This document shows, one piece after another, positions 291-22,109 of a stretch of 31,783 bases of DNA; positions within the stretch are counted from its first letter, which is position 1; every line of letters starts with the position of its first letter. A model generated the notes under the pieces. It worked only from the letters and a program-made list of their open reading frames with translations, was not told where the DNA came from and made no database searches. The DNA comes from a virus, in IMG/VR virus record IMGVR_UViG_3300020118_000081, positions 1 through 31,783 of that record. One strand, written 5' to 3'. A program made the translations under genes and the position numbers.

Positions 291-691
291 GCTGTTGCGC
301 TCTCCCTCAATTTCACGCGGGCCGCGGTGTCGGTGGATCCCGAGGTGATGCCGGTCCCGTCATAGGTCCCGAACAGCGTGCCGCCCGTGGCCTTGCTCAG
401 CGTCAATCCGGTGGTGACGTTGGTGGTCGAGTCCAGGGTGCCGGTGGCGTAAATGTTGTCGCCGGGCTTGGCCGCCGAGCCGGTCACCGGGGAGACCACC
501 GTGGCCGCGATCACCGTAAACTCGAAGGTGCCGGCCATGCGGAACACCGTGCCGCCGCTATTGCTGTTGTAGCTGTCCAGCGCCACCGCCGGCAGCTTGC
601 CGATGAGCACCGGATCGCCCGATAAAACCGTGCTCGGGCACGGATAAAACCGCGCGTCGGCCGGGCGGTCATTGCGAATCTCGTTGAGCAT
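287..691 (-). CDS. Capsid decoration protein, DUF2190-like
   Basis: 134 residues. The pattern GDPVLIGKLPAVAL, then GGTVFRMAGTFEFTV, then KPGDNIYATG resembles the beta-rich DUF2190 family of head-stabilising or decoration proteins, which bind the outside of the capsid shell. No signal peptide or membrane segment is seen. It lies between a small gene and the probable major capsid gene and overlaps the latter by 4 bp. The family call comes from motif spacing and context, not from a search. Confidence 0.65.
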   Translation of the reverse strand: MLNEIRNDRPADARFYPCPSTVLSGDPVLIGKLPAVALDSYNSNSGGTVFRMAGTFEFTVIAATVVSPVTGSAAKPGDNIYATGTLDSTTNVTTGLTLSKATGGTLFGTYDGTGITSGSTDTAARVKLRESATA

Positions 692-928
692 CTAGCGCCC
701 CTCCTTGGTATTTGTCCTCACCGGCTCGCTGGTCACCTCAGGCTTGGAAGTGACTGCCGGCTCGCGCAGCGCTACCGGCTGCTCGCTGCGCTCCGCGGGC
801 TTGTTGTTGCGCACTTCGTCATCCACGGCCTGAATCAGTTCGCGTGCCTTGGCGACCGCCGACTTGGCATCGTGATTGGTGCCCGAGGCGAGCGTGGCCG
901 CGACATGCAGCAATTCGTCGCGCGTCAT
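692..928 (-). CDS. Small hypothetical head-operon protein
   Basis: 78 residues. The N-terminal half (MTRDELLHVAATLASG) looks helical. The C-terminal half is charged and rich in Pro, Glu, Thr and Val (PAVTSKPEVTSEPV), probably unstructured. The start overlaps the stop of the protease-scaffold gene and the stop abuts the decoration gene, so it is part of the head operon. I do not recognise a family. A small structural or assembly role is an inference from position only. Confidence 0.6.
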   Translation of the reverse strand: MTRDELLHVAATLASGTNHDAKSAVAKARELIQAVDDEVRNNKPAERSEQPVALREPAVTSKPEVTSEPVRTNTKEGR

Positions 929-2607
929 GCCGCCTCCTCGTCGCGCGCCACAATCTTCTCGGCCGCTTCTTTCGACATCTTGAGGTCCATCCAGGTGCGG
1001 ATACGCGACTCCCGCAATTGCTTGGCGTCGATCTGCTTGCGCTCCGCCTCTTTGGCATCGACTTCCGGGGGAGGAGCCGCGCCCATGCCGACCACCCGGC
1101 CGCTGCCGGTCAGCGCGGCGACATAAGCGCCCTCGGCCTTGGCCGCGGCATTTACGGCTTCGGTGAAGACCACAAGGTCCAGTTGCACGTCCTTCTGAGG
1201 AATGGCGCGCGAGGTTACGGCCTCAATGACTCGCGGCCATGCCAGTTTTTCGAGACTCGTGGTTTTGAGGATGGACTCCGCTGCTTCGCGGGCATCCCCC
1301 CGGAGAGCACGCTCGAGCAGCCGCGCATTGTCCGCCGCCAGCTTCTGCTGCGCCTCCTGCAGTTTCGTAAGTTCGGCAGCGTCCATGCTGCTTGCCTCCT
1401 GATGTTGGGATTCGGCGGTTCGCGCCGCCTCGGTTAAAATCATGCCGCCTGCTCCGGCCTTGGTGACTACATCGACCGATTCGGCGCGCGTCAGTTCCTT
1501 GAGCACCGGCAACTCGCCGGACTTCGATGAGGCTTCGGCTACCCCGGCTGCACGGATTGACATGCCGACGTGCGGTGCCTTCTCCTCGACGGTCGCGGCG
1601 TGATCGGCAAATACTTTCATCCGGGCGTAAAGGCCTGGGCCTTTGGCATGGGATTCGTGGTAAGCGGCGTCCGTGGTGAGCACCCCGGCGAGGTTCGCAA
1701 CGTCGCCCTCCGGCCGCGCGGCTTCTTCGGCTGCGGTCGGATGGTTGAGGTAGACATGCGTGCCCGACCGGAACACCTTCGGCCCGTCGCGCTTCAGTAC
1801 CTCCGCCGGATAGACCGCCGAGGAGCCCTTGCCCGGCGCGATCAGTTTGATTTCGTAATCGCTGCGGGCTTCCCGCAGGACGATGGGCTCAATCGTGGCG
1901 GCGGCTTCGGTGAGCTTCAGTGCGCCAGTGGTGACCAATTCGTAATCGTATGTGGTTCCAACGCTCTCTTTGGCGTCGCCATCCTGCCAGGACTTCGGCA
2001 GATACTTACCCCAGCCCTTTTTCTTGGCGATGCGGATGATGTTGCGTTTGAGCGTGTCGGTCGAGTAGTTGCCCGATCCGGCGCGTCCCATCGAGCTCAC
2101 TGCCGCCATCACATCACCGGATTTCAAGATCGGGAAGGATCGGCCTTTGCCGGCGAAGTCGCTGCTGTCGGCGCTATCCCGTTCGCTTTTGGCGATGAAC
2201 CGTTCGTAGAGTGGGAGCCCGCTGTAAATCTTGTCCCGCTTGAATGCCTCCTCCATCGCGGCATAGTGGTCGTCTTCTTCCGCTTCCGGCTCGTACACCG
2301 TCCGCGGCACTACATCCTCGGCGTTGTCGGTGTCCACTACGCATTTGGCTGCTGTTGTGTCGCCTCCTGAGATGGAGTACGGCGCCCGCATAATGTCCGA
2401 GTCGCAGGAGTAGATCACATCGCCGGATTCGCCGTCGCCGAAGTGATCCACGTAGTAGGCCCACTGCCCGGTGCCCCGGTGCGCATCGGCAATCGCGTCG
2501 GAAAGCCGGGTGCGCACATCCCCGGCTGACAAGTCGGAGGCGGATTCCTGGATGTGGATAGCAAGTGCGACAGTGCCGGCCCGTAAGACCGTGCGGGATG
2601 CAGCCAT
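925..2607 (-). CDS. Prohead protease fused to scaffold-like domain
   Basis: 560 residues. Residues about 130-215 hold a segment (SFPILKSGDVMAAVSSMGRA, later IIRIAKKKGWGKYLP) common in phage head proteins. Residues about 250-370 match the style of phage capsid-maturation proteases: YPAEVLKRDGPKVF, then HVYLNHP, DVANLAGVL, GPGLYARMKVF and HVGMSIRAAG. Residues about 405-470 are an Ala/Glu/Leu/Gln-rich helical stretch expected of a scaffold, and the tail is charged (SKEAAEKIVARDEEAA). The family cuts scaffold and capsid proteins during head maturation. The ATG at 2607 follows the 2608-2692 divergent gap. Protease-scaffold fusion is inferred from the domain order, and the catalytic residues cannot be assigned with confidence. 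Confidence 0.75.
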   Translation of the reverse strand: MAASRTVLRAGTVALAIHIQESASDLSAGDVRTRLSDAIADAHRGTGQWAYYVDHFGDGESGDVIYSCDSDIMRAPYSISGGDTTAAKCVVDTDNAEDVVPRTVYEPEAEEDDHYAAMEEAFKRDKIYSGLPLYERFIAKSERDSADSSDFAGKGRSFPILKSGDVMAAVSSMGRAGSGNYSTDTLKRNIIRIAKKKGWGKYLPKSWQDGDAKESVGTTYDYELVTTGALKLTEAAATIEPIVLREARSDYEIKLIAPGKGSSAVYPAEVLKRDGPKVFRSGTHVYLNHPTAAEEAARPEGDVANLAGVLTTDAAYHESHAKGPGLYARMKVFADHAATVEEKAPHVGMSIRAAGVAEASSKSGELPVLKELTRAESVDVVTKAGAGGMILTEAARTAESQHQEASSMDAAELTKLQEAQQKLAADNARLLERALRGDAREAAESILKTTSLEKLAWPRVIEAVTSRAIPQKDVQLDLVVFTEAVNAAAKAEGAYVAALTGSGRVVGMGAAPPPEVDAKEAERKQIDAKQLRESRIRTWMDLKMSKEAAEKIVARDEEAA

Positions 2608-4630: not shown

Positions 4631-4800
4631 ACGTGGGCCCGCCAGATAGTCAATGCGCCGATGATCTCGGGCCGGTATTCCTGCCCGCACCTGGGACACG
4701 TCCAATTCTCGCCCGGCAACTGATCCTGCCGCGCCAGCTTGCGCCATGCCCGATGGCAGCAGGGATCAGCCTCCGGCGTGAGCGTGCTCAGCGGTTCCAT
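4612..4800 (-). CDS. Small zinc-ribbon protein after portal gene
   Basis: 62 residues from ATG at 4800, overlapping the portal C-terminus by 35 bp. The segment ENWTCPRCGQEYRPE holds a CPRCG knuckle, and an upstream CC pair (DPCCHRAW) may complete a zinc site. Phage head operons often carry such small proteins, but I cannot assign a role. A longer frame starts at 4893, which would lie wholly inside portal sequence and is less likely. Confidence 0.5.
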   Translation of the reverse strand: MEPLSTLTPEADPCCHRAWRKLARQDQLPGENWTCPRCGQEYRPEIIGALTIWRAHVWIAKW

Positions 4801-6751
4801 TGCGTTCGTCGATTGCAGCCTCGACGCGAGCCAATACTTCCCGGATGCGTTTCGCTTCCACCACTGATGGCGGCGCCGGAGCGCCCGCCGCAATCTTAGG
4901 TGCCGGTGCAGGAACGGGTGGAGGAGCGGGAACGAGATCGATGCCTTCCGGGTCCTCCTTGGTGCGGTCTAGTTCGTAAGTCGCATCCGGGAACACCTTC
5001 TCGACCAACTCTTCGGAGTTCTCCACATCCAATAACCGGCAGAACAGCCGCACGGCAGTCTTGTCGTCGATGCCATGCTGCCTCCCCTGTCGGTCAATGG
5101 CCATGGCGTCATTGACTGCCCGCACCAATGACGGGATGTCACCCTCTCGGATTGCGGGGAAGGTGCAAAGCACCTCTACCACGTCGGGCTGCTGTGTCTT
5201 AGCGGCTTCATGGGTCCAGTGGCCGCGGCGGATCTTGCGGCCGGCCTCGCGGATCGAAACTGCGCCGACGTCCTGCTGCCGCTTGGTCAAGGCCGCACGG
5301 AACTGGCCGGAGGGTGCCGACTTGCTGACCATCAGCGCATAGCGCCCCATCACGACCAAGTCTTCCTGCCACTCCTCCTGCTTGAGCATGAAACCTAATT
5401 CTGTCGGCCGGTCGAGCGTCAGCGCCGTGGAGAGATTGCTGGTCTCCATGTCACCGAGCCAGGTGGGCGGCACCTCGAGGGCGCAGGCCGCCATGTTGCG
5501 GTACTCTTTTACCTCGCCGGGGTCTGGGCCGGCGCCTCGTGTCTTGAATGCCTGCAGTTGCGTGCCTGGTCCCGAGGCGAACATCGAGCCTGCCATAGCC
5601 GGCGGGTTACCATCCATCGCTGCCATATCCGGTCCTGCGGTCGTCTCGAACTGCCCCTTGATGCCCTCCAGCGCCTGCTGGCCCCCTTTCGTCGTAATGG
5701 TCAGCGCGATCTGCGCTTGGGCTGCCACAACTGCCCGGCAGTGTTGCAGATGTTTGCGGCCCTCCCTGGCCCAGTCGATAGCAGCGTATGCCCTGGGACA
5801 TCCGAAGGCCCAGTAGGCGATGTGGCCGACTGCCCGGTGATACACCGGCTTGTCCCAGTTGACCCGCTTGCCGCCAATCGTCGGCATCCGCTTCCCGGAA
5901 TCGTCCGCCACCTCGAGGGCATAGCTCAGCGCCGGATACCACTCGTCGGCGGGGTCGTTGTGTACCTGTCCGGTGACCAGATCCGTGGTGCGTTGCGTCC
6001 AGACGCGGCGATAGAACTGCGGCTTATCCGCGTCGTTCGGGTCCTGTTGGATCTCCTGGATCTCGGTGGCATCGATCAATCGCACGTTGACTTCGCCCTT
6101 ATCCTGGGTATCGGCGAAGAGGCACCAGAACAGATTGCCGTCGTAGCTCTTGCGCTTCTCCTGCTCGACCAATGCGATTTGTCCGAGGGTCGATTTATTG
6201 CGCTCGCGGAATTGCTTCAGCACTTCGTTGGCATCGGGATCGGGGGAGGATATCTCCACGCCTTGCCCGAAGACATACGCCGCACTCAGGTTCACTCCAT
6301 GGCGTATCCACGGGTGCTTGATGTAGTGCAACCGGCAGATCAAAATAATCTGCTGTATCCCCCAGCGGCTGAACTCGAGCCAGGACAGATTGACTTCCCG
6401 CCGCCACTCGACATTCTGCAGCGCCAGTTCGATATCGCCGTACATCCCTGTCCCGGGCATGGATTCGCGCAACGTCTGCGGCTGCTGGAATCGCTCAATG
6501 GCGCGGTTGATGAGCCGATCCGTTTGGTTGAGGGTCTGCGGCGCCACCTGCCACGGACCCGCGCCGGCCATCTGCCGCGCCTCGATCAACTCCGAGACGC
6601 GCTCCATGTACGCCTCTCGGGCTGGGTCCTCCCGGGTGGCAAGACCTACCAGCGCATCGTTGAGCTTACGGATGGTGCTGGATTGATCCGGGGGCTTGGG
6701 CGAGGTTTTGGCTAACCAGGCCAGCAATAGCTTACGCAGGCGGCGGTTCAT
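4766..6751 (-). CDS. Phage portal protein
   Basis: 661 residues. The portal forms the ring at one head vertex through which DNA enters and leaves. Typical portal sequence is present: WGIQQIILICRLHYIKHPWIR and GVNLSAAYVFGQGVEI, then LIDATEIQEIQQDPND, then an AIDWAREGRKHLQHCRAVVAAQ helix region and a long C-terminal arm rich in Pro and Ala (LVPAPPPVPAPAPKIAAGAP). Length is at the upper end for the family. The ATG at 6751 follows repeat copy 2. It heads the head-gene operon and is separated from the terminase genes by the 7 kb glycan cluster, an unusual arrangement. Confidence 0.85.
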   Translation of the reverse strand: MNRRLRKLLLAWLAKTSPKPPDQSSTIRKLNDALVGLATREDPAREAYMERVSELIEARQMAGAGPWQVAPQTLNQTDRLINRAIERFQQPQTLRESMPGTGMYGDIELALQNVEWRREVNLSWLEFSRWGIQQIILICRLHYIKHPWIRHGVNLSAAYVFGQGVEISSPDPDANEVLKQFRERNKSTLGQIALVEQEKRKSYDGNLFWCLFADTQDKGEVNVRLIDATEIQEIQQDPNDADKPQFYRRVWTQRTTDLVTGQVHNDPADEWYPALSYALEVADDSGKRMPTIGGKRVNWDKPVYHRAVGHIAYWAFGCPRAYAAIDWAREGRKHLQHCRAVVAAQAQIALTITTKGGQQALEGIKGQFETTAGPDMAAMDGNPPAMAGSMFASGPGTQLQAFKTRGAGPDPGEVKEYRNMAACALEVPPTWLGDMETSNLSTALTLDRPTELGFMLKQEEWQEDLVVMGRYALMVSKSAPSGQFRAALTKRQQDVGAVSIREAGRKIRRGHWTHEAAKTQQPDVVEVLCTFPAIREGDIPSLVRAVNDAMAIDRQGRQHGIDDKTAVRLFCRLLDVENSEELVEKVFPDATYELDRTKEDPEGIDLVPAPPPVPAPAPKIAAGAPAPPSVVEAKRIREVLARVEAAIDERNGTAEHAHAGG

Positions 6752-6825: not shown

Positions 6826-7560
6826 CTACAGTGCGTAAATCTTGAGCGGCCCGCCATGACTCGCTTTCGTCTCCGGCGGTAGCAAATCCCCGATGATCAC
6901 ATGACGATATCCATCTTCATAGGCGTTGTTCGGGTCCTTCTTGTTGTACCAGTGATATTTGCGGATGCGATCCTCTGGCAGCATATAGCCGAGGTGCAGG
7001 AGGGTGGCGTTGATCCACGCTCCGGTTCCCTTCAATCCTCGCGGCACGTTGCCGCAGTGCAGGCCGCACTTGGCCTGATCCCCACCGTGCTGGCCGAACT
7101 GTACGGCCCCCTGGCCGATAAGCGAGAAGATAGAAGTCCGTCCGCCAGCTGCATAGTTGCCATACACCCCATCGACGCGGTAGTGCTGGCGATCATTCCA
7201 CAGATATTTGATCGGCAGCGAATAGACGCAGGTGTCGGGCCTCAATCTAGGGACGATCTTGTCTGCTGCGCCCTGCTCGAGCACTTCGTCGCCATCGATG
7301 CACAGCACATACTCCGGGTTGATGGCGCGCCGCAAGATATCAAGCGCATAGTTTTTATCCCTCACCTCATCGGTATCTTTGGGATCTGCAAATGGGGAGC
7401 GGACGACGTACCCGCCGGCCTGGGTGGCAATGGCGGCAGTGTCGTCGGTGGAGTGGTCGTCGAAGACGAGAATGGTGCGGGTGAGCGGCTGGATCGACTG
7501 CAGGACTTCTCCGATCCAGCGCGCTTCGTTCTTGACGCGGAGCATCGCCGCGATACGCAT
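6826..7560 (-). CDS. GT-A glycosyltransferase (family 2-like)
   Basis: 244 residues. The start MRIAAMLRVKNEARWIGEVL, then DDHSTDDT (34-41) and CIDGDE (87-92) are the nucleotide-sugar and metal-binding signatures of family 2 glycosyltransferases (DxD-type). It moves a sugar from a nucleotide sugar to an acceptor. The acceptor is unknown. There is no membrane segment, so it is probably soluble in the cytoplasm. It is the last gene of the glycan cluster before the portal and is followed directly by repeat copy 2. Confidence 0.85.
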   Translation of the reverse strand: MRIAAMLRVKNEARWIGEVLQSIQPLTRTILVFDDHSTDDTAAIATQAGGYVVRSPFADPKDTDEVRDKNYALDILRRAINPEYVLCIDGDEVLEQGAADKIVPRLRPDTCVYSLPIKYLWNDRQHYRVDGVYGNYAAGGRTSIFSLIGQGAVQFGQHGGDQAKCGLHCGNVPRGLKGTGAWINATLLHLGYMLPEDRIRKYHWYNKKDPNNAYEDGYRHVIIGDLLPPETKASHGGPLKIYAL

Positions 7561-7563
7561 CGG

Positions 7564-7953
7564 CTATGCGGACGGGGTATTAGTGGTGACGGACTGCGCG
7601 AGGGTTTGGCTACTGGCTTGAATCTTCGTCCCCAGGTCCGTCAATGCCTGTAGTTGCTGCTGAGTTGCGCCGGCCGCCAGCGCTTGCTGGACGGCATTTT
7701 GGATCAGCGTCGGAACGCCGTCGATAAAGGTCTTGGCCGATTGCTCGACCGTGGTTTCCTGCTCCACCTGTTGCTGCAGTTGGGCAATTGCATCGTCCAA
7801 TTTAGACATCGTATTCCTCTCCTGAGCCTGGCCGGCCGTTACTCTCGCCATCTGCACCGTGAGTTGCGCGAGTTGCTGAGTGATCGCGTCCAACTTGCTG
7901 TAGACGGGATCGTCTTGGTGCAATCGCAAAGTGAACGTCACGGATGCAGACAC
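7564..7953 (-). CDS. Coiled-coil hypothetical protein, possibly two starts
   Basis: 129 residues from GTG at 7953. The first 45 residues contain a Leu/Gln/Val helix (YSKLDAITQQLAQLTVQM). The part from residue 49 (MSKLDDAIAQLQQQVEQET) resembles small phage coiled-coil proteins by itself. A strong purine-rich ribosome site (GGAGAGG) lies before the internal ATG at 7809, so a shorter 81-residue product is likely as well as, or instead of, the long one. Function unknown. Confidence 0.6.
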   Translation of the reverse strand: MSASVTFTLRLHQDDPVYSKLDAITQQLAQLTVQMARVTAGQAQERNTMSKLDDAIAQLQQQVEQETTVEQSAKTFIDGVPTLIQNAVQQALAAGATQQQLQALTDLGTKIQASSQTLAQSVTTNTPSA

Positions 7954-7980
7954 CTGCGGCTAGAGTAGCACGCAAGCCAG

Positions 7981-8121
7981 TCATTGGACCGCGATATGGA
8001 GCTTTTTAGCCTGCTGAAATTCGCGCCAGTCCCGTTCGAACTCCCCGCGCGTGGCGTCCGGCTTGAAAATGCGGTAGACATCCCACCACTCGTTGGCATC
8101 GAGTTCGTACAGGCTATCCAT
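7981..8121 (-). CDS. Small hypothetical protein
   Basis: 46 residues from ATG at 8121, with GGTGGA about 7 bp before it. The sequence MDSLYELDANEWWDVYRIF then RGEFERDWREFQQAKKL is acidic, aromatic and probably helical. It overlaps the end of the deacetylase-glycosyltransferase gene by 8 bp. I do not recognise it. Confidence 0.55.
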   Translation of the reverse strand: MDSLYELDANEWWDVYRIFKPDATRGEFERDWREFQQAKKLHIAVQ

Positions 8122-9511
8122 TCTGTTTCCACCATTGCCAAAGCTCCTTGTCTGCATCTGTATAGCGGCGCCACGGTCGTTGCCACCCGCGCTCTTCATA
8201 ACGCACACTCAAGCTCTTCCACGGCTCAAACGGCAGCCGGTCCAGTAGAAACACCGCAATCCCAGGCTTCAACCATGCCCGCGTCACCTCAAGATGCGCG
8301 TTCTGCCAATCTCCAAACCCACTGCGCCCGTTCGGCTCCGGCAACTCCGTAAACGCAGAAGTCCGCATCAAGCCAATGCCGCCGATATGCGAGCACGGCT
8401 CGGCTACCCGTGTTCCATCGCCAATGGGGTGTATGGCCTCAATCCCCAGCAGGTCGATAAACGGATGGCGCTCGAGCACCTCGAGGCATTGCGTCAGCCA
8501 GCCCGCAGGGAGCATTGTGTCATTGTCCACCTTGGCGAACCAGGCAGAGGGCGAGCGGGACAGGTAATCGTTCATCACTGCAACGGGCGAGCCAAAATCC
8601 GTGGTCAATAGAGATGCTTTGGGCCAGTCTCCCATCTCGGCCCGTAATGCCTGCCTGGTGCCGTCCTCGGAGTAGCCGTCGTGATACACAAAGACCTTGC
8701 GGACGCGCGCCCAGTCGGTATTGCGCCGCAGCGCGCGGAGGGATTGGACCGTAAATTCGCGCCGGTTGCTCGCCAGATAGATGATGTCGACCTGTGCCAA
8801 TGGGTCTACTGCCGGCAGGTCTGCCATGCCGATCAGTTGAATGTTCTCGGCATTCAGGAACTGGCGGAACTCCTGAGAGAGCAGATACTCCATCTCGCGT
8901 TCGCGCGCCTCGCACATTGTCGATCTGGCCCGTAACTCGTCGTCCGCATAGCCGGGGTGGCACATCAGATGCACCGTTTCGTAACGCTCGAAATCTCCCT
9001 GCAGGATGGGCGGCAGCGCCCGGTTGCCGACCCAGCGGATCTCCGCGTAGTCTGCCGTGCGTACTCCCATCTGCCGCAGGATCGTCCGCTGACGTGCAGT
9101 CAGTGGCACGCCGGGGCAGTGATACCGCTGGCACAATTCGGCATAAACTTCGAAGACTTCCGGGATGGAGTGCGAATGCGAATGCGTGTCGAGATGCGAG
9201 GGCGGCAGTTCATGGTCGCGGATCTGGGCTTCAAATTCGGCCTTCACTTCTTTCGGGTCTACCGCGCCGATCTGGTGGCGCTGCCGCGGGAACAGGCCAT
9301 TGGTGACGAGAGAAGGAATCAATCGTGGCGATAGTGCCGGGACTCCATCCGTGAGCCGGAGATGGACGCCGGAGCCGGGGAGCGGCATCCCACCTCCGCC
9401 CGCCAATTGGGATACGGAGGTGACAATGCCCGCGGCTTGCAGCTTGAGGATGGCTTTGTTCACCCCGAGCGTCATGCCGAAGTCGTCGGCGTTGATCACC
9501 AGCCGCTTCAT
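8114..9511 (-). CDS. ChbG/YdjC-type deacetylase fused to a GT-A glycosyltransferase
   Basis: 465 residues from ATG at 9511. Residues 1-235 look like a YdjC/ChbG carbohydrate deacetylase: VINADDFGM (Asp9, Asp10), GVHLRLTDG (His50), HLDTHSHSH (His106, His110) and CHPG (184-187) are the expected metal and catalytic motifs. Residues about 242-465 are a GT-A domain with a degenerate HDGYSEDGT nucleotide site, KVDNDT (327-332) and a C-terminal motif FLLDRLPFEPWKSLS shared with the gene at 10840. It would deacetylate an N-acetyl sugar and transfer a sugar, possibly on the same glycan. The frame is uninterrupted. Start choice rests on the family N-terminus, since the track start would add 26 residues. 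Confidence 0.8.
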   Translation of the reverse strand: MKRLVINADDFGMTLGVNKAILKLQAAGIVTSVSQLAGGGGMPLPGSGVHLRLTDGVPALSPRLIPSLVTNGLFPRQRHQIGAVDPKEVKAEFEAQIRDHELPPSHLDTHSHSHSIPEVFEVYAELCQRYHCPGVPLTARQRTILRQMGVRTADYAEIRWVGNRALPPILQGDFERYETVHLMCHPGYADDELRARSTMCEAREREMEYLLSQEFRQFLNAENIQLIGMADLPAVDPLAQVDIIYLASNRREFTVQSLRALRRNTDWARVRKVFVYHDGYSEDGTRQALRAEMGDWPKASLLTTDFGSPVAVMNDYLSRSPSAWFAKVDNDTMLPAGWLTQCLEVLERHPFIDLLGIEAIHPIGDGTRVAEPCSHIGGIGLMRTSAFTELPEPNGRSGFGDWQNAHLEVTRAWLKPGIAVFLLDRLPFEPWKSLSVRYEERGWQRPWRRYTDADKELWQWWKQNG

Positions 9512-10371
9512 ATCGCTACTTTCCTGTGGATGATTGCCGGTCGCACCCATACCCGCTGGAATTGCCGCCATTCGAGGGATGGTCGCCACTTCTGAGCGCT
9601 CGGCGTTTCCGGTTGCCAGAGCATCGCGTGTGGCGTGAATCCGATGGCTACCATGTCGCGCAGGCGCTTCTCAGCCGCATCAAAGGTGTCTTTGGGGTAG
9701 CCGATCAGGACGTAGCAGCGCAGCCGGTGCGACTCGCGGGTGAAGCCAGCCGCCAACATCCTCTTGGCTGCGCTCTGGAGCGTTTCAAACGGGTCGCCGG
9801 GATCGTAAGCGAAAAAGCAGGCCGGAAGCGGCTTCAGGTCTGCCAGGAGTCCGACGTGGTAGTCCTCCAGTGACAGCGCCTCCAGCCCGCCCGTGAATTG
9901 CGCGCGCCTCTCCTGAAGCCGGAGCATTTGAAACACGGCGCGTACATGCCACTCAGGGCAGGCTAGCAGATTGTCGTCCAGGATGTTCCAGCCGTCGGCG
10001 AACGGCCAGATCGGGACCGGCTGCGGCCGCCGCTTCCATACGGAGCAGAACCAGCAACGCCGCGGGCAGCCGCGGGACGTGAAGGTGTAGCCTGGCTTGA
10101 TGTACCTGCCGGGTGTGAAGTAGCCGCGCCCCTCGTCGCCATACGCCACGCCACCAACCTTTACCGGGGCGATCGCCTGCCACGCTTCCGCCAACTGTTC
10201 GGCTTTTGGCTTGTCGGCAGTGAACGTGACGCTGACGTGCACCTCGTCGGCTTCGGGCGGAAATAACCCCGGTGCGGCATCCATATGGCCCTTCCCGGGT
10301 CGGGGGGAGAATGCGAGCGCATCAAGCGGAGTGGCCTCCGTGCGACGGGGAAACACGCGAGCCAGAGTCAA
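9508..10371 (-). CDS. Radical SAM protein
   Basis: 287 residues from TTG at 10371, with GGAGG 6 bp before it. CPRRCWFC (102-109) is the CxxxCxxC cluster that binds the iron-sulphur centre and starts radical chemistry on S-adenosylmethionine. The following sequence (NILDDNLLACPEWHVRAVF, FTGGLEALSL, RCYVLIGYPKDTFDAAEKRL) has the barrel-like pattern of the family. The substrate cannot be told. It lies between the methyltransferase-like gene (4 bp overlap) and the deacetylase fusion (4 bp overlap), so it is in the same operon and probably acts in the same modification pathway. Confidence 0.8.
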   Translation of the reverse strand: MTLARVFPRRTEATPLDALAFSPRPGKGHMDAAPGLFPPEADEVHVSVTFTADKPKAEQLAEAWQAIAPVKVGGVAYGDEGRGYFTPGRYIKPGYTFTSRGCPRRCWFCSVWKRRPQPVPIWPFADGWNILDDNLLACPEWHVRAVFQMLRLQERRAQFTGGLEALSLEDYHVGLLADLKPLPACFFAYDPGDPFETLQSAAKRMLAAGFTRESHRLRCYVLIGYPKDTFDAAEKRLRDMVAIGFTPHAMLWQPETPSAQKWRPSLEWRQFQRVWVRPAIIHRKVAI

Positions 10372-10829
10372 CGTATCCTCCAGGCGGTCGTCTCATCCGG
10401 CCCGCTGCGAAACACGATCCTTGCCGTGCTCAGCTTCTCCGCGGCTTCGTGGGCTTCCCGGTACCGCGGGCGGTCGGAATCATCGAGCAGCAGCCAGCCT
10501 CCGTGCTGGATCTTGGGTAGTGCGTCGAGTACGCTGCGCACCCGGCCCCGTCCATCGATCAATGCCAGATCCACCAGAGACACCAGCCCTAAGCCTGCGG
10601 TCGGATAATCCGCCCAAAAGCGCAGCGTCACGTTCGGGATGGCTTCGACCTTGCGGGCCCACTCTGCGGTGTGCTCATACGTGATCACCCGGAATACCCG
10701 GCAGGCAAAAAACGGTGTGCTGCCTCCGGCTCCGGTTTCCAATACGATCCAATGCCGCTGGAGGGTGGCGGCGAGCCAGTCGATCACCTCCGGCATAAGC
10801 CAGGGCAGGGTATCGGAGACATGCTTCAA
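10368..10829 (-). CDS. Class I methyltransferase-fold protein
   Basis: 153 residues from TTG at 10829. A longer frame exists but its first 45 residues look like shadow sequence of the next gene. VLETGAGGSTPFFA is a glycine-rich SAM-binding loop, followed by VITYEHTAEWARKVE (acidic residue after strand 2) and DLALIDGRGR, WLLLDDSDRPRY. This pattern resembles FkbM- or type-24-like methyltransferases found next to glycosyltransferases. It is short for the family, and a true enzymatic role is likely but unproven. It overlaps the radical SAM gene by 4 bp. Confidence 0.6.
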   Translation of the reverse strand: MKHVSDTLPWLMPEVIDWLAATLQRHWIVLETGAGGSTPFFACRVFRVITYEHTAEWARKVEAIPNVTLRFWADYPTAGLGLVSLVDLALIDGRGRVRSVLDALPKIQHGGWLLLDDSDRPRYREAHEAAEKLSTARIVFRSGPDETTAWRIR

Positions 10830-10839
10830 TCGGCACCCA

Positions 10840-11535
10840 TTATTCCACGGGCCGCCACCAATTCCACATCGGTTCCTGCTCCGGCTTGTAGCGCAATTCC
10901 AAGCTCCAGGGCCGCTGCCAGCCCTTCTTGACGTACTCCTCGGACAAGGATTTCCACGGGTCAAAGGGCAGCCGGTCGAGCAGGAACGTGGGCAGGCTGG
11001 GCAGTATCCACCCGCACCGGCAGTGCTGGGTCATGAACTCCTCGAGGCCGAAGTAGCCGTTATCTTCAGGCAGCGCGTTCTCGAATACCTTGCGGCGGTA
11101 GAGCCCCAGGCCGCTGATGTACTTCGCCGGCAGGTAGCCGCGCGGGGATTCCGTGCCCATGACCGGCGTCCGCATACACTCCAGGCCGAGACAGTCCAAA
11201 CTGGGATATGTGTGCATGACCTCCAGTGCATCGTTGAGCCAGCCGGGTGGATAGATGGTGTCGTTGTCGAGCTTGGCGAGGATCGGGGCCGTGCTGCGCT
11301 TGATCCAGTCGAGCGTCACGCCCATGGGGGAGTGAAAGTTAGTCCTGTTGACGATGCGACGGTACCCTTCCGATACTTGCTCCTGTAGCCACTCGCGCGT
11401 GCCGTCCGTCGAGCCGTCGTCGTAGACGTGGAACTCGCTCACCAGCGACCAGTCGGTGTTGGCCATCAGCGCCGCCCAACTCTGGCGGGTGAACTCCAAA
11501 CGGTTGAAGGCGGGGAACAGCAGCGAGACGTTCAT
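10840..11535 (-). CDS. GT-A glycosyltransferase, paralogue of the fused domain
   Basis: 231 residues from ATG at 11535 (ATGA overlap with the previous gene). MNVSLLFPAFNRLEF, YDDGSTDGT and KLDNDTIYP are the family 2 signatures. Its C-terminus FLLDRLPFDPWKSLS then GWQRPW is nearly the same as that of the glycosyltransferase half of the fusion at 8114, so the two are paralogues that have diverged. Soluble and probably cytoplasmic. Donor and acceptor sugars are unknown. Confidence 0.85.
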   Translation of the reverse strand: MNVSLLFPAFNRLEFTRQSWAALMANTDWSLVSEFHVYDDGSTDGTREWLQEQVSEGYRRIVNRTNFHSPMGVTLDWIKRSTAPILAKLDNDTIYPPGWLNDALEVMHTYPSLDCLGLECMRTPVMGTESPRGYLPAKYISGLGLYRRKVFENALPEDNGYFGLEEFMTQHCRCGWILPSLPTFLLDRLPFDPWKSLSEEYVKKGWQRPWSLELRYKPEQEPMWNWWRPVE

Positions 11536-11735
11536 GCGCCCGTGCCCAGGTGCGCTGCTTCGGCGCTCAGCATGGCGCGGATCACCTCGGGGTCGTCGCT
11601 CGAACAGCAGTGGATGTGGGTGTCGCCCTCGGTATCCGAGAGCGCCAGCGTCACGCCGGATTCCTGCGCCCGGACGCAGAGCGTCATCATATCCATAGCC
11701 TTCTGTTGGTCTTCTGGCTTCACATGCTTTTCCAT
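11532..11735 (-). CDS. Small hypothetical protein of the glycan cluster
   Basis: 67 residues from ATG at 11735. Sequence MEKHVKPEDQQKAMDMMTL then DTEGDTHIHCCSSDDPEVI. The His-Cys-Cys group might bind metal, but no family is recognised. It is overlapped at both ends by glycosyltransferase genes (4 bp with 10840, 16 bp with 11720), so it is translated as part of that operon. The upstream GGAG is very close to the ATG. Confidence 0.5.
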   Translation of the reverse strand: MEKHVKPEDQQKAMDMMTLCVRAQESGVTLALSDTEGDTHIHCCSSDDPEVIRAMLSAEAAHLGTGA

Positions 11736-12409
11736 TTCTCCAGGTAGATCCGCCGCCCTTCCGAGATATCGCCGCCCGCATAAGCCGAACTGCGAAACGT
11801 GGATTGCAGCCGCGAGTGATCTACGAAGCAATCGTCTGAAATACCGATCTTCATGCCGCGCTGCCAGACCCGGCGGCAGTAGTCATTGTCCTCCCAACCG
11901 TAGCTGGTAAAAATTGGGTCGAGCTCGCCCACCAGATCCAAGGTGTAGCGCGGCAGCAGCACGCAGACGAACGCCACCGTAGGGAAGGAGTTGCCCAGCA
12001 TCAAACGGCACTCCCGCACCCCTGGGATTGCCCGGCGGTGCTGCTCCGGGTTGCCCGCCAGATTGGTGGTGGCCGAAATGAGCCCGTACTCCGGCTGCCG
12101 CTTGGCCGCCAGCTGCATCACGCTGAATCCGTAATGCGACTCCAGCAAGGCGTCGTCATTGCACAGCACCACATCATCCCGTCCCGCTTCATGGATGCCC
12201 AGGTTGCAGTTCGTTGCAAAGACGAAAGGCTTCTTGCCGATCAAAAACGTGCAGTCTTCGATCACCGGAGGGATCGGCTTGCCGTTCCAGTCCAGCCCAT
12301 CGTCTACCACGATGATTCGCACTTCTGGTTCGTGCCGGCGGATCGCCTCTACGCAGGGGATCAGGTTGTCTGCGTTGCGGGAGGGAATGACTACAGAGAG
12401 TCCGCTCAC
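11720..12409 (-). CDS. GT-A glycosyltransferase (family 2-like)
   Basis: 229 residues from GTG at 12409, with GGAGG about 7 bp before it and a GTGA overlap with the previous gene. The motifs VSGLSVVIPSRNADNLI, VVDDGLDWNGK and VLCNDDALLE fit family 2, the NDD being the metal site. Later SYGWEDNDYCRRVWQRG matches the catalytic ED motif of rhamnosyl- and other family 2 transferases. It closely resembles O-antigen-type glycosyltransferases. Product unknown. Confidence 0.85.
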   Translation of the reverse strand: MSGLSVVIPSRNADNLIPCVEAIRRHEPEVRIIVVDDGLDWNGKPIPPVIEDCTFLIGKKPFVFATNCNLGIHEAGRDDVVLCNDDALLESHYGFSVMQLAAKRQPEYGLISATTNLAGNPEQHRRAIPGVRECRLMLGNSFPTVAFVCVLLPRYTLDLVGELDPIFTSYGWEDNDYCRRVWQRGMKIGISDDCFVDHSRLQSTFRSSAYAGGDISEGRRIYLEKWKSM

Positions 12410-12852
12410 TTCACGGCCTCCAGGATGATCTTCAGCTTGTTCACTTGATCCTGCAATCGCGCCTCGACGAAAGTCTGCACCCGGAACCGCGCCTTCACCC
12501 CGTAGCGATCCCCAAAGCGCTCCCGGTGTGGATCGCCATGCGTGAAGTACAAAAACGAATTGCGGTTCCAGTAACTGACATGCGTCGGGTCCTGCCATGC
12601 GCCGCGGCCATCAGTGGTCGGCACGTCGATATCGAAGATGCCATACGGCACCAGGACGCGCCATGCCTCGTTCATGGTGTGAACCTTGTCGGGTAAATGT
12701 TCAATAACATCGTACGCGCGGATCTCTTCAATACTCGAATCGGCCCATGGCCACGGCTGGCGCAGGTCGGCGATGACATCCGCAGGAGGGAATAAATCGA
12801 CCGAAGTAAAGCCGGGGAAGTCTCGCCCGCACGCGCCGAGATTCAAACGCAT
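12406..12852 (-). CDS. SAM-dependent methyltransferase (type 11-like)
   Basis: 148 residues. MRLNLGACGRDFPGFTSVDL (SAM-binding loop and acidic residue), ADVIADLRQPWPWADSSIEEI, DVIEHLPDK and WRVLVPYG are the standard motifs of small type-11 methyltransferases that often act on sugars or lipids. The start codon ATG lies inside the left end of repeat copy 3, and the repeat also supplies the purine-rich ribosome-binding stretch (GGTGAGAGG). A 4 bp overlap links it to the next glycosyltransferase. Activity on the glycan is an inference. Confidence 0.75.
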   Translation of the reverse strand: MRLNLGACGRDFPGFTSVDLFPPADVIADLRQPWPWADSSIEEIRAYDVIEHLPDKVHTMNEAWRVLVPYGIFDIDVPTTDGRGAWQDPTHVSYWNRNSFLYFTHGDPHRERFGDRYGVKARFRVQTFVEARLQDQVNKLKIILEAVK

Positions 12853-12902
12853 AGCCTCTCACCCGTGGTGTGTTCCATCAGGATTCCGTTGTCTCAGGAG
12901 TG
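12850..12902 (+). repeat. 53-bp dispersed element, copy 3
   Basis: Starts CATAGCCTCTCACCCG and ends TTGTCTCAGGAGTG. Read on the minus strand it encodes the last residues of the 12878 gene and then supplies the start codon of the methyltransferase gene at 12852. It faces copy 4 across one small gene. Confidence 0.9.
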
Positions 12903-13150
12903 GAAGATTGCGGACCGGCCTTCCGCTGCTGCTCCAGCCATTCGTCACAGCAAATAGAGCAGTGCCACATGTAGAGTGGATCGACGGGCACGGCGAACCA
13001 TACCTCATGGCCGCACTCGAAAGTCACGCGACATCCGTCACGACCATGAGCCACTACCGATCTGATTGCGCGCAGCCAATTGATTGGCATTGTTCGAATG
13101 TTGCTCACGCGACACCTCCCGCCAATTCCCGTGCCCCGATTTCCTTTCAT
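12878..13150 (-). CDS. Small Cys/His-rich protein bracketed by repeats
   Basis: 90 residues from ATG at 13150, whose start codon lies in the end of repeat copy 4. CRVTFECGHEVWF then MWHCSICCDEWL form a probable Cys/His zinc site. The N-terminus is basic. The last eight or so residues (TPETTES) are encoded by repeat copy 3. The gene is thus framed at both ends by the dispersed element. Function unknown. Confidence 0.55.
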   Translation of the reverse strand: MKGNRGTGIGGRCRVSNIRTMPINWLRAIRSVVAHGRDGCRVTFECGHEVWFAVPVDPLYMWHCSICCDEWLEQQRKAGPQSSTPETTES

Positions 13151-13201
13151 TCCTGTGACGCCGGACTCTCACTCTCAACGACGTGCTGGTGAGAGGCTAC
13201 G
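13148..13201 (-). repeat. 54-bp dispersed element, copy 4
   Basis: In the minus-strand reading it begins CGTAGCCTCTCACC and ends GGCGTCACAGGAATG, where ATG is the start codon of the 12878 gene. A CCTTTTTT run follows on the plus strand at 13202-13209. The middle is one of the most divergent in the family. Confidence 0.85.
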
Positions 13202-13214
13202 CCTTTTTTGGTGC

Positions 13215-13901
13215 TCATAATTTCATCTGCTCCTTAGCCAATTGATCGTAGCCCTCCGCCCGTTTCCACTCCTGCGCGCCCTCAATGACGCGGCTCGAGG
13301 TATTCGCGCCGTGGATCTCGCAGATCAAACGCGGCCCGTCGCACACCAATGAACTCACGCCCATGCCTCTGACTCTCATCAGCCACTCGATATCCTCCCC
13401 GACCTGCTTCGCGGGAAACGGATACTTCTGCCATGTGCGGCGCCAGTAGACCAGGGAGGCTCCGATGGCATACCGGGAGTTGCCGTTGCTGTACACCCAT
13501 GCCTCTTGTTTGGTTGAGTCCCAGAACAGCACCTCCCGGTAGCCCACCACATCCGTCCTGCCGCCGTCGAGCATGGCCATCTGCTCCTCTAATCGTCTCG
13601 GATGGCTCAGGTCGTCCGAATCCCAATGGGCGATCACATCGCAGTCGAGGGCTCCGCTCAATGCCAGCGCATTCGCCAAGTTCCGCAGCGTGCCAATCGG
13701 CCGCCGTCCTTCTTCGGTGTCTGCCAGACGGTCGATGTAGATGCCGGCGCCGCGATCCACGATCAATGCTTCTGGTCCGTTGTCCAGGATGTAGAGGGCT
13801 CGCCGGTCTTCCGGCCAGTTCTGCCATTGCCAGCATTGAATGGCGCGCTGCACCATGGCTTGACGACCAGCAGCCAGCATCACGGAGAGCACGCGAATCA
13901 A
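13215..13901 (-). CDS. GT-A glycosyltransferase-like protein
   Basis: 228 residues from TTG at 13901. The start is served by GAGAGG inside repeat copy 5. MIRVLSVMLAAGRQAMVQRAI and YILDNGPEALI begin the fold, and VIAHWDSDDLSHPRRL carries the DSDD metal motif. A later EDIEWLMRVRG matches the catalytic acid region of family 2 enzymes. Soluble. It is the first glycosyltransferase of the cluster in transcription order and lies between copies 4 and 5. Acceptor unknown. Confidence 0.8.
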   Translation of the reverse strand: MIRVLSVMLAAGRQAMVQRAIQCWQWQNWPEDRRALYILDNGPEALIVDRGAGIYIDRLADTEEGRRPIGTLRNLANALALSGALDCDVIAHWDSDDLSHPRRLEEQMAMLDGGRTDVVGYREVLFWDSTKQEAWVYSNGNSRYAIGASLVYWRRTWQKYPFPAKQVGEDIEWLMRVRGMGVSSLVCDGPRLICEIHGANTSSRVIEGAQEWKRAEGYDQLAKEQMKL

Positions 13902-14581
13902 CTGCGTAGCCTCTCACCGTTGTTCTGTTCCATCAGGGTTCCCGTTGTCTCAGGAGCGCGGCCAAGGTATTCGAGCGCCTGTCTGCCGATGAACTCGCTG
14001 TATGCCGGGGGGATCGCCTCCGAAAGCTCGTTCCGGTTCATCCAGTCGATGCCCATGGCTTCGCGGTACTGCATGATGGTGGGGTTGTAGCCGAGTTGCG
14101 CCCGCACCCAGGACGGCGTGCCATGGCCGACGACGCTCACCACCGGGTGCTCATGGTTGCAGGCGTATACCAGATCGAAGGCTTGCCAACTCGTCTCGAA
14201 ATACCGCTTGCGGCGGATCTTCAGGCCTACTTGGCAGCCGCAGAGCACCAGATCGGCACGCATCGGAGCACCCGGAACGTTTTCGATTGTCCAAGGCACT
14301 CGAGCGCGGAGCAGACGTTGACGGGTGGGGTCGAGCAGATCCGGGTGGTTCACTCTCCTTGCGTGCGGAGTCGCCATCGAATACCGCTGGCATGGCGGGC
14401 TTGCCCAGATGAAATCGTACCCGTCCAGCGGAAACGTCAGCGCATCGGCCTGGTGGAACTCATCGCCGCAGTATCGCGGCTGCGGGCGGATATCCACGCC
14501 GGTCACATGGAAGCCGGCGCGTTGCAACCCCTTGGTTGCGCCTCCCGCACAACAAAACAGGTCCAACGCGCGGGGCCTCAT
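13898..14581 (-). CDS. DNA (cytosine-5) methyltransferase, short form
   Basis: 227 residues from ATG at 14581, which is in the end of repeat copy 6. LDLFCCAGGATKGL (motif I, 7-20), WASPPCQRYS (motif IV with the catalytic Cys, 59-68) and TIENVPG (motif VI, 98-104) identify a cytosine-C5 enzyme. It transfers a methyl group to cytosine in DNA. It lacks a clear target-recognition domain and has a short C-terminus, as in many phage versions. The last 20 residues, from GRAPETTG on, are encoded by repeat copy 5. A longer N-terminal frame (from 14644) would translate repeat copy 6. Confidence 0.8.
   Translation of the reverse strand: MRPRALDLFCCAGGATKGLQRAGFHVTGVDIRPQPRYCGDEFHQADALTFPLDGYDFIWASPPCQRYSMATPHARRVNHPDLLDPTRQRLLRARVPWTIENVPGAPMRADLVLCGCQVGLKIRRKRYFETSWQAFDLVYACNHEHPVVSVVGHGTPSWVRAQLGYNPTIMQYREAMGIDWMNRNELSEAIPPAYSEFIGRQALEYLGRAPETTGTLMEQNNGERLRS
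13905..13958 (+). repeat. 54-bp dispersed element, copy 5
   Basis: Starts CGTAGCCTCTCACCG and ends TTGTCTCAGGAGCG. On the minus strand it encodes the C-terminus of the methyltransferase and its GAGAGG serves the TTG start of the glycosyltransferase at 13901. It faces copy 6 across the methyltransferase gene. Confidence 0.9.
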
Positions 14582-14632
14582 TCCTGTGACGCATGACCCC
14601 TGATGGAACGCACGTACAGGCGAGAGGCTACG
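14579..14632 (-). repeat. 54-bp dispersed element, copy 6
   Basis: In minus-strand reading it begins CGTAGCCTCTCGCC and ends GCGTCACAGGAATG, with ATG as methyltransferase start. The flank CATGAACACAACG before it is nearly the same as that before copy 9, stop codon included. Confidence 0.9.
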
Positions 14633-14640
14633 CGTTGTGT

Positions 14641-14823
14641 TCATGCCGCCTGAGTTTCCTCGATGGAATCCACCAATTGCTTAATCTGTTTCCGTACCGA
14701 GTTGGGATCGGCTGCGGTCCATTCCCGGGCGATCTCGCATAACCGTTGGGCCCGTGCGGCCTGCTGCAATTCGTAAGCTGCCACGAGGTCGTCTTCCGTT
14801 AAATCATTCATCGAGGGGTACAT
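14641..14823 (-). CDS. Small acidic hypothetical protein
   Basis: 60 residues from ATG at 14823, with AAGGA 8 bp before it. A second ATG four codons later is possible. Sequence MNDLTEDDLVAAYELQQAARA then RKQIKQLVDSIEETQAA looks helical. It overlaps the zinc-ribbon gene by 20 bp and ends next to repeat copy 6. Function unknown. Confidence 0.55.
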   Translation of the reverse strand: MYPSMNDLTEDDLVAAYELQQAARAQRLCEIAREWTAADPNSVRKQIKQLVDSIEETQAA

Positions 14824-15383: not shown

Positions 15384-16703
15384 TTATACCGGGCTGATGA
15401 TGTAATCCGCCGGCTGCCGGAGCAACTGGCCGCTGTTCGGATCCAGATGCCGCGTCTCGACGCGCGGCGCCACCAGACCAGCCCAGGCAAAGGCTAGCGA
15501 CATTACCGTGTCGTCGTGCTGCCCTGCCGGCGCGGCATAGCGCATCATGCCCGAGGCCAGCGGGGTGGCCTCAAAGGCTTGCAACTCGCCGATCAGCACC
15601 GGGTCGTCCAGGATATGGATGGTCTGCCGCTCGAAGGCTAGGGCCAACTGGTCGATGATGGCGGATTTCGAGGCGTTGGTGGTCTGGAACCCTACCACCG
15701 GCAGCCCGTCGCGCTGCAATTGCTCTACGACTGGGCCACCCATAGAATTGACTTCGGCCATGATCCATGCCCGTTTGCCGTAGCGCTCCCACATGGCCCG
15801 GAGTCTCTGGCGTTGCAGTACGTACTCGATGCCGCGGAAGCGGTCGATCTCCAGCACTTCGCCGGCTTGGGATAGGGCGGTAAAGACCGTGTAGTCGTTG
15901 GTGCGGCCCCAGTCTACTCCGATCATGGCGCACTGCGCGGTAGGCTTGGCCGGATCGCGTACCGCGTCGGTGATTCTGCGGAATACGCTGCCGGCCCAGG
16001 TGACGAACTGGGCAAGGTATTCCTGGGCGAAGGCCAGATCGCTCATGTCCTCTTTGGCGGTCTCGATCTCGCCCGGTGGTAAATGCGGATTGAGCGAACT
16101 AGGCATCTGCCACGTCGCCCAATCCGGCTTGAGCGGATCCATGCCGTAGCCGTGCAACGTGTAGAAGGCGTTGGCTGTGCCGCGCGGCGTGGATAAGAAC
16201 CAGGCGCCCCCGGAGTAGTCGGTCAACATTGGACGTAAGGTGCGCTGCCATGCCTCCTCGAGCTCGCCGGTCTTGGCTGCCTCGTCAATCACCAGCAGGT
16301 GATAGGCCCGGCCGCGGCCGGAGTCCGGATTGTCCAGCGACCAGCCATCGAGCGAGCCGCCGCCATAGACCTCGAGCCGGTGCTCGCTGTCGTTGCGTCT
16401 TGCCGTAATGGGCTTCAAGGTCTGGGCCAGCGACCGCCATGCCTCGGATAAGTCCTTGTAAATGGGCGAGTACCACGCCACTTTGCGGCCTGCCAGAATG
16501 CCCTCCACGATGCGATCCAGGGCAATGGTGGTCTTGCCCCAGCGGCGGCCGCAGCAGAGCACGTTAAAACGTTTGGCCTCGTGCAGGACCTGGACTTGGC
16601 CGGGGTGCGGGCGGGGCAGCTTGAGACGGACGGTGGTCATCGGCTGCGCCCTCGCTGCGACTGCCGCGCCGGCCAGCGATTGCAGGAATACGCGCCTGTC
16701 CAT
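15384..16703 (-). CDS. Terminase large subunit
   Basis: 439 residues from ATG at 16703. Motor: CGRRWGKTT (51-59, Walker A) and LLVIDEA (136-142, Walker B). Nuclease: IGVDWGRTND (first Asp near 264) and a HDD near residue 400. It packages DNA into heads with the small subunit just upstream. The first 20 residues, MDRRVFLQSLAGAAVAARAQ, look like a complete Tat signal peptide, odd for a cytoplasmic motor. A start at ATG 16640 (MTTVRLKLP), with GAGGG 8 bp before it, would remove it and may be the real one. Stop codon TAA precedes repeat copy 7. Confidence 0.85.
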   Translation of the reverse strand: MDRRVFLQSLAGAAVAARAQPMTTVRLKLPRPHPGQVQVLHEAKRFNVLCCGRRWGKTTIALDRIVEGILAGRKVAWYSPIYKDLSEAWRSLAQTLKPITARRNDSEHRLEVYGGGSLDGWSLDNPDSGRGRAYHLLVIDEAAKTGELEEAWQRTLRPMLTDYSGGAWFLSTPRGTANAFYTLHGYGMDPLKPDWATWQMPSSLNPHLPPGEIETAKEDMSDLAFAQEYLAQFVTWAGSVFRRITDAVRDPAKPTAQCAMIGVDWGRTNDYTVFTALSQAGEVLEIDRFRGIEYVLQRQRLRAMWERYGKRAWIMAEVNSMGGPVVEQLQRDGLPVVGFQTTNASKSAIIDQLALAFERQTIHILDDPVLIGELQAFEATPLASGMMRYAAPAGQHDDTVMSLAFAWAGLVAPRVETRHLDPNSGQLLRQPADYIISPV

Positions 16704-16710
16704 GTGGTGG

Positions 16711-17061
16711 TCACTTCCCTTCGTACTCGACGATGACCTTGAGCGGCCCGGCCAAGCCAATCTGCCCTTCATGCTCCAGGACTTGCGTCTCGCGCCAGTG
16801 CTCGCGGGTCTTCAACCAGAAGCACGCCGCCGCCACCGCTCCCCGGCCGCCGCCCTTCATGGCCTTTACCAGCGTGGATATGGCTTGGGCGGTGACCTGC
16901 CGCTGGCCGGTGGTAAGCTCGCGCTTATAGGCTTTGTAGAGCGTGGGCTCGGAGCACTTTACGCAAGCCGCGATGAAATCGTGGGTGATCCCCCCGGCTG
17001 CCAGGAGCAGGACCAATTCGCGGTCTTCGGGGCGGGGTTCGTGCTTCTTGCCTTGCGCCAT
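16711..17061 (-). CDS. Terminase small subunit
   Basis: 116 residues. A helix-turn-helix (DRELVLLLAAGGITHDFIAA then SEPTLYKAYKREL) is followed by an alpha-helical oligomerisation region (KAMKGGGRGAVAAACFWLKT, EHWRETQ). Length, order and spacing (8 bp before the large subunit) fit a DNA-recognising terminase small subunit, which binds the packaging site. It is expressed with the large subunit. Confidence 0.8.
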   Translation of the reverse strand: MAQGKKHEPRPEDRELVLLLAAGGITHDFIAACVKCSEPTLYKAYKRELTTGQRQVTAQAISTLVKAMKGGGRGAVAAACFWLKTREHWRETQVLEHEGQIGLAGPLKVIVEYEGK

Positions 17062-22080: not shown

Positions 22081-22109
22081 ACTATAAACTACATGGTGTT
22101 TAATGTCAA
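22081..22109 (-). promoter_or_regulatory. Strong sigma70-type promoter
   Basis: On the minus strand: TTGACA (22109-22104, perfect), 17 bp, TATAGT (22086-22081, 5 of 6). Six bases separate the -10 from the ATG at 22074, so the mRNA would be leaderless. Confidence 0.7.

Follow-up and report, generated by a model that had tools for sequence, protein, structure and literature searches.

A recurrent glycosyltransferase cassette in the head-gene operon of environmental phages: a putative locus for virion-protein glycosylation

Introduction

Bacterial flagellin-glycosylation islands and O-antigen loci combine constant and variable glycosyltransferases (GTs) with DegT, RmlD, FdtA, WbqC, deacetylase and methyltransferase modules. 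Among phages, virion glycosylation by phage-encoded enzymes is described for mycobacteriophage Che8 (cluster F1), with glycans reported on capsid and tail-tube proteins (Freeman et al. 2023, as cited in PMC11256854 and PMC12619734), and phage GTs that hypermodify DNA are also on record (Pyle et al. 2024, as cited in PMC12619734). In this study we analysed a run of glycan-modification genes in the IMG/VR virus record IMGVR_UViG_3300020118_000081. The whole stretch (31,783 bp, linear, probably a fragment of a genome) is referred to as the window. An earlier note, made from the letters alone, had listed five GT-A domains, a deacetylase, a radical S-adenosylmethionine (SAM) gene and two methyltransferases in this run, which was said to split the head genes from the terminase. 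All of these were confirmed on the minus strand, with the genes for the terminase large subunit (TerL) and the portal on either side (Table 1). Our analysis places most of them in a recurrent cassette with a probable role in glycosylation of virion proteins.

Results

In transcription order, the run consists of a small C5-type methyltransferase gene, GT_C, MT11, GT_B, a small open reading frame (ORF), GT_A2, MT24, the radical-SAM gene, a gene in which a YdjC deacetylase is joined to another GT_A2, a gene for a probable coiled coil and, last, GT_A1. The glycan genes are all on one strand and mostly overlap or lie close together. Since several overlap by 4 nt (9511/9508, 10371/10368, 11535/11532, 12409/12406 and 13901/13898), these neighbours are probably co-translated. 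The PF00535 cut-off of 23.3 bits was passed by GT_A1, GT_A2 and GT_B. Despite its score below this cut-off, GT_C belongs to a family in whose alignment a DxDD motif is invariant. The GT half of the fusion protein reached 23.1 bits, just under the cut-off, and keeps the acidic metal-binding motif in the GT_A2 alignment. Its YdjC half matches PF04794 with 157 bits (cut-off 29.7) over profile positions 1–265 of 266, keeps the ADDFG, GVHL, DTH and CHPGY motifs, and aligns with EF_3048 and a chitooligosaccharide deacetylase; it scores under the equivalog cut-offs of NCBI. MT11 is 46–68% identical to members of its family, with one divergent member at 27%. The start of MT24 was placed by homology to L234:8111-8587, which itself scores 28.9 bits with PF13578, above the cut-off. 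A PDB match of GT_B to a tail fibre covered a short, uninterpretable stretch and was discarded.

To follow this gene set in other viruses, 90 viral loci (window included), all fragments of metagenomic records, were collected starting from GT_A1 and GT_A2, and genes were called with our own codon-model caller. Structural labels were obtained by scanning representatives with PHROGs or Pfam and were then spread by clustering. Collapsing loci with at least 80% identity in GT_A1 left 73 non-redundant loci. As the loci were selected through GT_A1 or GT_A2, the frequency of GT_A1 is meaningless, while those of its partners are informative: GT_B was present in 63, GT_C in 53, MT11 in 44 and GT_A2 in 14 of the 73 non-redundant GT_A1-bearing loci. 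The same profiles found GT_B and GT_A1 once each, and GT_C, MT11 and GT_A2 not at all, in 131 control phage loci gathered through TerL or the radical-SAM gene (44 centred on TerL; not position-matched). The core order was GT_C–MT11–GT_B–[variable genes]–GT_A1. Where both genes were found, GT_B preceded GT_A1 in 71/71, GT_C preceded GT_A1 in 60/60, and GT_C preceded GT_B in 54/55 cases; for these counts the cassette was ended at the last GT_A1, and in four loci a GT_B directly follows GT_A1. Adjacent core genes overlap in 83 of 116 pairs. The nearest head or tail gene was on the same strand in all 69 scorable non-redundant loci, and was the very next gene in 45. The usual site is between the major capsid protein and the head-tail connector; in contigs with the portal type of the window, the cassette lies upstream of the portal, in the TerL-portal gap. 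Judged by gene content and order, the core is a modular, recurrent cassette embedded in the head-gene operon. The gene-neighbourhood search that the earlier note had proposed thus revealed these families, in unchanged order, in dozens of phage contigs, and the set is not unique to the window.

The locus L234 carries GT_C, MT11, GT_B, MT24, YdjC, GT_A2 and GT_A1 at 33–53% identity to the window copies. The set sits between capsid and connector genes and lacks the radical-SAM gene; the TerL, portal, protease and cement protein of the window have no homologous counterpart in L234. Because the glycan set is shared but the head genes are not, the set is found as one unit in head modules that are unrelated. 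YdjC and GT_A2, fused in the window, are separate overlapping genes in L234, and this arrangement suggests that the deacetylase is functionally tied to GT_A2. Independent backing comes from co-occurrence: 9 of the 17 loci with GT_A2 had a deacetylase (PIG-L or YdjC), versus 3 of the 71 without it (Fisher p 7e-6). In relatives, PIG-L takes the place of YdjC.

These observations bear on the view that unrelated moron genes have piled up by chance, without a joint function, in a TerL-portal gap that tolerates them. The middle of the cassette does vary in content and the gap is short in L003, which carries a related TerL; yet the fixed order, the recurrent partners and the match in L234 make such an accumulation highly improbable. 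An artefact of near-identical contigs is likewise disfavoured, since the GT_A1 copies of the 73 loci are more than 20% different from one another.

The middle differs considerably between loci. In the window it comprises MT24, the YdjC–GT_A2 fusion, the extra GT_A2 and the inserted radical-SAM gene. Other loci have a DegT aminotransferase with GTx72 and a TOD1/MUCI70-type GT, an RmlD-type reductase with an FdtA-type isomerase and GTx9, or PIG-L with a small GT (GTD) and GT_A2; WbqC and an epimerase also occur. The TOD1/MUCI70-type GT (PF04765; L145:9171-10001 and relatives) was present in 26 phage cassette loci and is located one to three genes ahead of GT_A1. Different middles were found despite capsids with 68–79% identity (e.g., L216 and L225). 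In Mantel tests the structural genes diverge together (capsid-connector rho 0.64), as do MT11, GT_B and GT_A1 (rho 0.42–0.61). Capsid divergence does not track GT_B or GT_A1 (rho 0.10 and 0.14), and the connector, which usually adjoins GT_A1, tracks them moderately (rho 0.41). Divergence of GT_C follows the portal (rho 0.87) and the capsid (0.45–0.51). As far as the alignments tell, this pattern is that of a swappable glycan locus, and GT_C may be the enzyme that recognises the acceptor. The cassette could then represent a virion serotype locus within the head operon, with constant outer GT genes and an exchangeable sugar-modifying middle, so that similar capsids would carry different protein-linked glycans; we put this forward tentatively, at slightly less than even chances.

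The radical-SAM gene has a different distribution. Its CxxxCxxC motif is intact (PF04055 20.9 bits, below the cut-off), the three cysteines are invariant in 35 aligned sequences, and the TTG start is backed by a conserved N-terminus. Close relatives are encoded by 101 viral stretches, and 34 aligned members are 48–79% identical to the window copy. The family (loci L046-L132; about 275–285 aa) has the conserved motifs VFPR..P and TSRGC..C.FC. Bacterial relatives are few and from very different phyla (7 loci in 84,980 species genomes), and 50,697 phage records gave three weak partial matches. The neighbours are diverse; those recognisable and recurring are DNA methyltransferases, helicase loader, Holliday-junction resolvase and terminase. 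MiaB and TM_1862 were the closest structures to the model, weakly, and the family does not have the extra cysteines expected of a methylthiotransferase. The translational coupling of the window gene to both neighbours (10371/10368 and 9511/9508) would fit a single dedicated pathway, with the radical-SAM enzyme acting on the sugar or the acceptor. However, the gene was found in only 1 of the 73 non-redundant cassette loci, among 50 records with a close homologue a family 2 glycosyltransferase (GT2) domain is lacking in 45, and in L234 the genes that flank it in the window, MT24 and YdjC, are directly adjacent and overlap. We therefore rejected the gene as a pathway member and regard the dedicated pathway as quite improbable. 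By its distribution it is an independent, widespread phage family and an inserted passenger in the window cassette. The notion that all genes of the run form one set holds for the recurrent families, which keep the same order, and fails for this gene.

The best explanation for the cassette, and in our view a fairly probable one, is glycosylation of a virion protein in the cytosol, with acceptor, sugar and linkage putative. This is favoured because the cassette encodes no multi-pass membrane protein and no route to a hydroxymethylated base was found. Among 556 genes of 83 cassettes, no protein with at least two hydrophobic transmembrane-like segments was detected. With at most one membrane-like segment per protein, export of a lipid-linked surface polysaccharide is unlikely, and sequential transfer in the cytosol fits.

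This bears directly on modification of the host envelope, by which the cassette would change the surface polysaccharide of the lysogen or infected cell, e.g., to exclude other phages. The phage is probably temperate, as judged from an integrase gene at 25423-26262, the DegT, RmlD, FdtA, WbqC and PIG-L genes found in related cassettes are of the kinds usual in O-antigen or capsule loci, and weak cellular relatives of GT_A1 lie in loci of this type. The 83 cassettes nevertheless contain no flippase, polymerase or ligase, and the cassette sits among late head genes and points the same way, instead of being expressed as a separate lysogeny gene. An effect on the envelope is thus unlikely. A bacterial prophage source was also considered, but the strongest hit in Acidobacteriota is a chromosomal GT/methyltransferase fusion and not a prophage. 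This protein of 1,679 aa (L200:1923-6962), the strongest cellular relative of GT_A1, joins GT_B-like, MT11-like, GT_A1 and other GT/methyltransferase regions and is encoded at a distance of about 11 kb from csrA-fliW-like genes. The Alphaproteobacteria and their phylum, with 385 plus 398 genomes, yielded a single match at 1e-25 or better.

DNA glycosylation would require that the GTs decorate a hydroxymethylated base, with neighbouring C5-type methyltransferases performing the first step. GTs acting on phage DNA are known, as mentioned above, and the window has three C5-methyltransferase-like genes (13898-14644, 17068-18096 and 22103-22873), the first of which overlaps GT_C. Against this, none of the three has a homologue in any other cassette contig, so that the gene next to GT_C is not a recurrent cassette member, and the cassette is placed among head genes. 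A thymidylate-synthase-type hydroxymethylase was found in 0 of 26 cassette records (fragments) with a positive control search; TET/JBP was also found in 0 of these 26 fragments, a weak result since no control genome scored. Taken together, we consider DNA an improbable target. The three C5 genes all differ from each other within one small phage; one lies beside a ParB-like gene, and 22103-22873 shares 60% identity with an L052 gene that lies near the radical-SAM gene.

The decorated-sugar pathway of the earlier note is supported by these data, and of its three suggested targets, virion protein, DNA and host surface, the first is favoured by the co-directional position in the head module (69/69), by the 556 genes free of multi-pass membrane proteins, and by the lack of any sign of hydroxymethylated bases in the records searched. 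For GT_A1, an AlphaFold2 model (predicted local distance difference test, pLDDT, 91.9) had the peptide glycosyltransferases SunS and ThuS as nearest solved folds, and a profile search ranked GmaR and SunS first. This likeness lends fold-level support to a protein acceptor and is not proof; with TIGR04195, the SunS-like family, GT_A1 scored 16.1 bits (cut-off 350), so that it does not match at family level.

In cytosolic glycosylation of virion proteins, the GTs would be made late, alongside the head proteins, and would draw on host nucleotide sugars in the cytoplasm. A virion protein, for instance a capsid, cement or tail-tube protein, would receive a short oligosaccharide, built stepwise, sugar by sugar, at Ser/Thr or some other residue. 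One core GT would add the first sugar; candidates are GT_C, which is co-inherited with structural genes, and the peptide-glycosyltransferase-like GT_A1. The YdjC half may deacetylate an N-acetyl-hexosamine beside the linkage handled by its fused GT, the methyltransferases may cap or methylate the glycan, and exchange of the middle would alter the sugar coat of the virion. In the window, the cement protein is rich in Ser and Thr (25%) and is a candidate glycan acceptor. Collagen-like (G-X-Y) repeat proteins, possible acceptors, are encoded near the cassette in other loci (L134:2060-3238, L137:6107-7156, L138:11425-13404 and L141:8294-11362). They occurred in 4 of 27 cassette loci versus 1 of 87 and 0 of 44 controls, which were not position-matched, and none is present in the window; the L134 protein also matches the portal family phrog_1289.

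Several points weigh against glycosylation of virion proteins. The TM-score to SunS is only about 0.55, and a GT-A fold match cannot fix donor or acceptor. O-antigen-like loci harbour the weaker cellular relatives of GT_A1, and similarity to the GTs of Che8, the demonstrated case of virion glycosylation, is no better than to generic bacterial GT2s. Co-inheritance of GT_C and capsid may come from physical linkage alone. The loci are all metagenomic fragments chosen via GT_A1 or GT_A2.

The positions of the cassette and of its flanking genes are given in Table 1. The minus strand forms a late operon that runs from a helix-turn-helix (HTH) gene resembling that of the terminase small subunit (TerS) through TerL, small genes and the glycan run to portal, protease and cement protein, while genes of the plus strand serve recombination, replication and integration (ERF, Gp157, integrase). 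Homologues of the portal with 39–49% identity are present in L145, L147, L204, L220, L248 and L258. Two further ORFs lie outside the run. In one open frame at 26275-26928, a HicB-like antitoxin domain comes after a recombination endonuclease VII domain; this fusion may be unreal, as the gene caller starts the HicB part only. A 55-aa ORF at 19703-19870 has the look of a Flp-type pilin by eye and no Pfam match.

Table 1. Cassette genes and flanking head genes of the window, in transcription order.
Feature	Position	Strand	Basis
TerS-like HTH gene (upstream flank)	16711..17061	-	weak HTH_23 match; position before TerL
Terminase large subunit, TerL (upstream flank of cassette)	15384..16772	-	phrog_2 E 3e-40; PF03237
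Small C5-type DNA methyltransferase, 4-nt overlap with GT_C	13898..14644	-	PF00145 24.2 bits; phrog_363 E 3.5e-35
GT_C, first core glycosyltransferase (GT-A)	13215..13901	-	PF00535 16.4 bits (cut-off 23.3); family alignment
MT11, core SAM-dependent methyltransferase	12406..12852	-	Methyltransf_11 just under cut-off
GT_B, core glycosyltransferase	11720..12409	-	PF00535 24.5 bits; family alignment
Small overlapping ORF, 67 aa	11532..11735	-	gene call; no Pfam match
GT_A2, accessory glycosyltransferase	10840..11535	-	PF00535 46.9 bits; family alignment
MT24, methyltransferase-fold protein (Methyltransf_24-like)	10368..10829	-	53% identity to L234:8111-8587
Radical-SAM protein	9508..10371	-	phrog_9298 62.8 bits; CxxxCxxC; TTG start
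YdjC/ChbG-type carbohydrate deacetylase (N-terminal) and GT_A2-like glycosyltransferase (C-terminal) fusion	8114..9511	-	PF04794; PF00535
Short protein, probably coiled coil	7564..7953	-	homologue in L258
GT_A1, last core glycosyltransferase, cassette signature	6826..7560	-	PF00535 31.2 bits; family alignment
Portal protein (downstream flank)	4766..6751	-	phrog_10963 E 5e-51
Head maturation protease	925..2607	-	phrog_15531 E 1e-32
Head decoration (cement) protein	287..691	-	phrog_122; PF09956 22.1 bits; 25% Ser+Thr

Discussion

Direct proof of glycosylated particle proteins exists for few phages, and the cassette offers a ready test. Its fixed order, its site in the head operon and its swappable middle predict lineage-specific glycosylated virions across a group of environmental phages. 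Such glycans would affect adsorption, stability and recognition of the virions, and the cassette would supply compact soluble enzymes for making protein-linked glycans.

The statement that no well-described pathway has this exact composition still holds for the libraries and papers that the searches covered. The literature searched, which did not include several key papers (Che8, DNA GTs), contained no account of the cassette. A tblastn search of 50,697 phage records gave no match for GT_A1, and the other cassette genes tested gave weak or partial matches only; scans of viral contigs with the YdjC-GT fusion or GT_C as single sequences led nowhere.

Virion glycosylation by phages is already known from Che8. 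Like the cassette, Che8 has phage-encoded GT-A enzymes and no obvious apparatus for membrane export, and it is a working precedent for the proposed function. Its GT genes 108–110, however, are located at the right end of the genome, and no deacetylase or swappable sugar-modification middle is among the genes annotated there. A promising first profile hit to gp108–gp110 did not survive calibration against bacterial GT2s: the GT_C profile scored 30 bits with gp108 versus up to 112 with ordinary bacterial GT2s, and the GT_B profile 14 bits with gp109 versus up to 76, so that specific homology was rejected.

The phage GTs for DNA hypermodification share with the window the presence of several viral GTs and of C5-methyltransferases (Pyle et al. 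2024, as far as cited in PMC12619734). They differ in that no source of hydroxymethylated bases was found in the cassette records and that other cassettes have no C5-methyltransferase homologue. The YdjC/ChbG family (PF04794) shares the full-length match and the motifs with the window copy, which differs by its fusion to a glycosyltransferase.

SunS, ThuS and the flagellin glycosyltransferase GmaR are cytosolic GT-A enzymes that act on a polypeptide and are the best structural and profile matches of GT_A1, but these are partial matches, with about 100 residues covered by the profile and a TM-score of about 0.55. These systems are not known to have the partner genes of the cassette. Flagellin-glycosylation islands and O-antigen loci have similar modules, but the cassette lies in a phage head operon and is free of flippase, polymerase and ligase genes. 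If the cassette is indeed a serotype locus, it would be a viral analogue of these O-antigen or flagellin-glycan loci.

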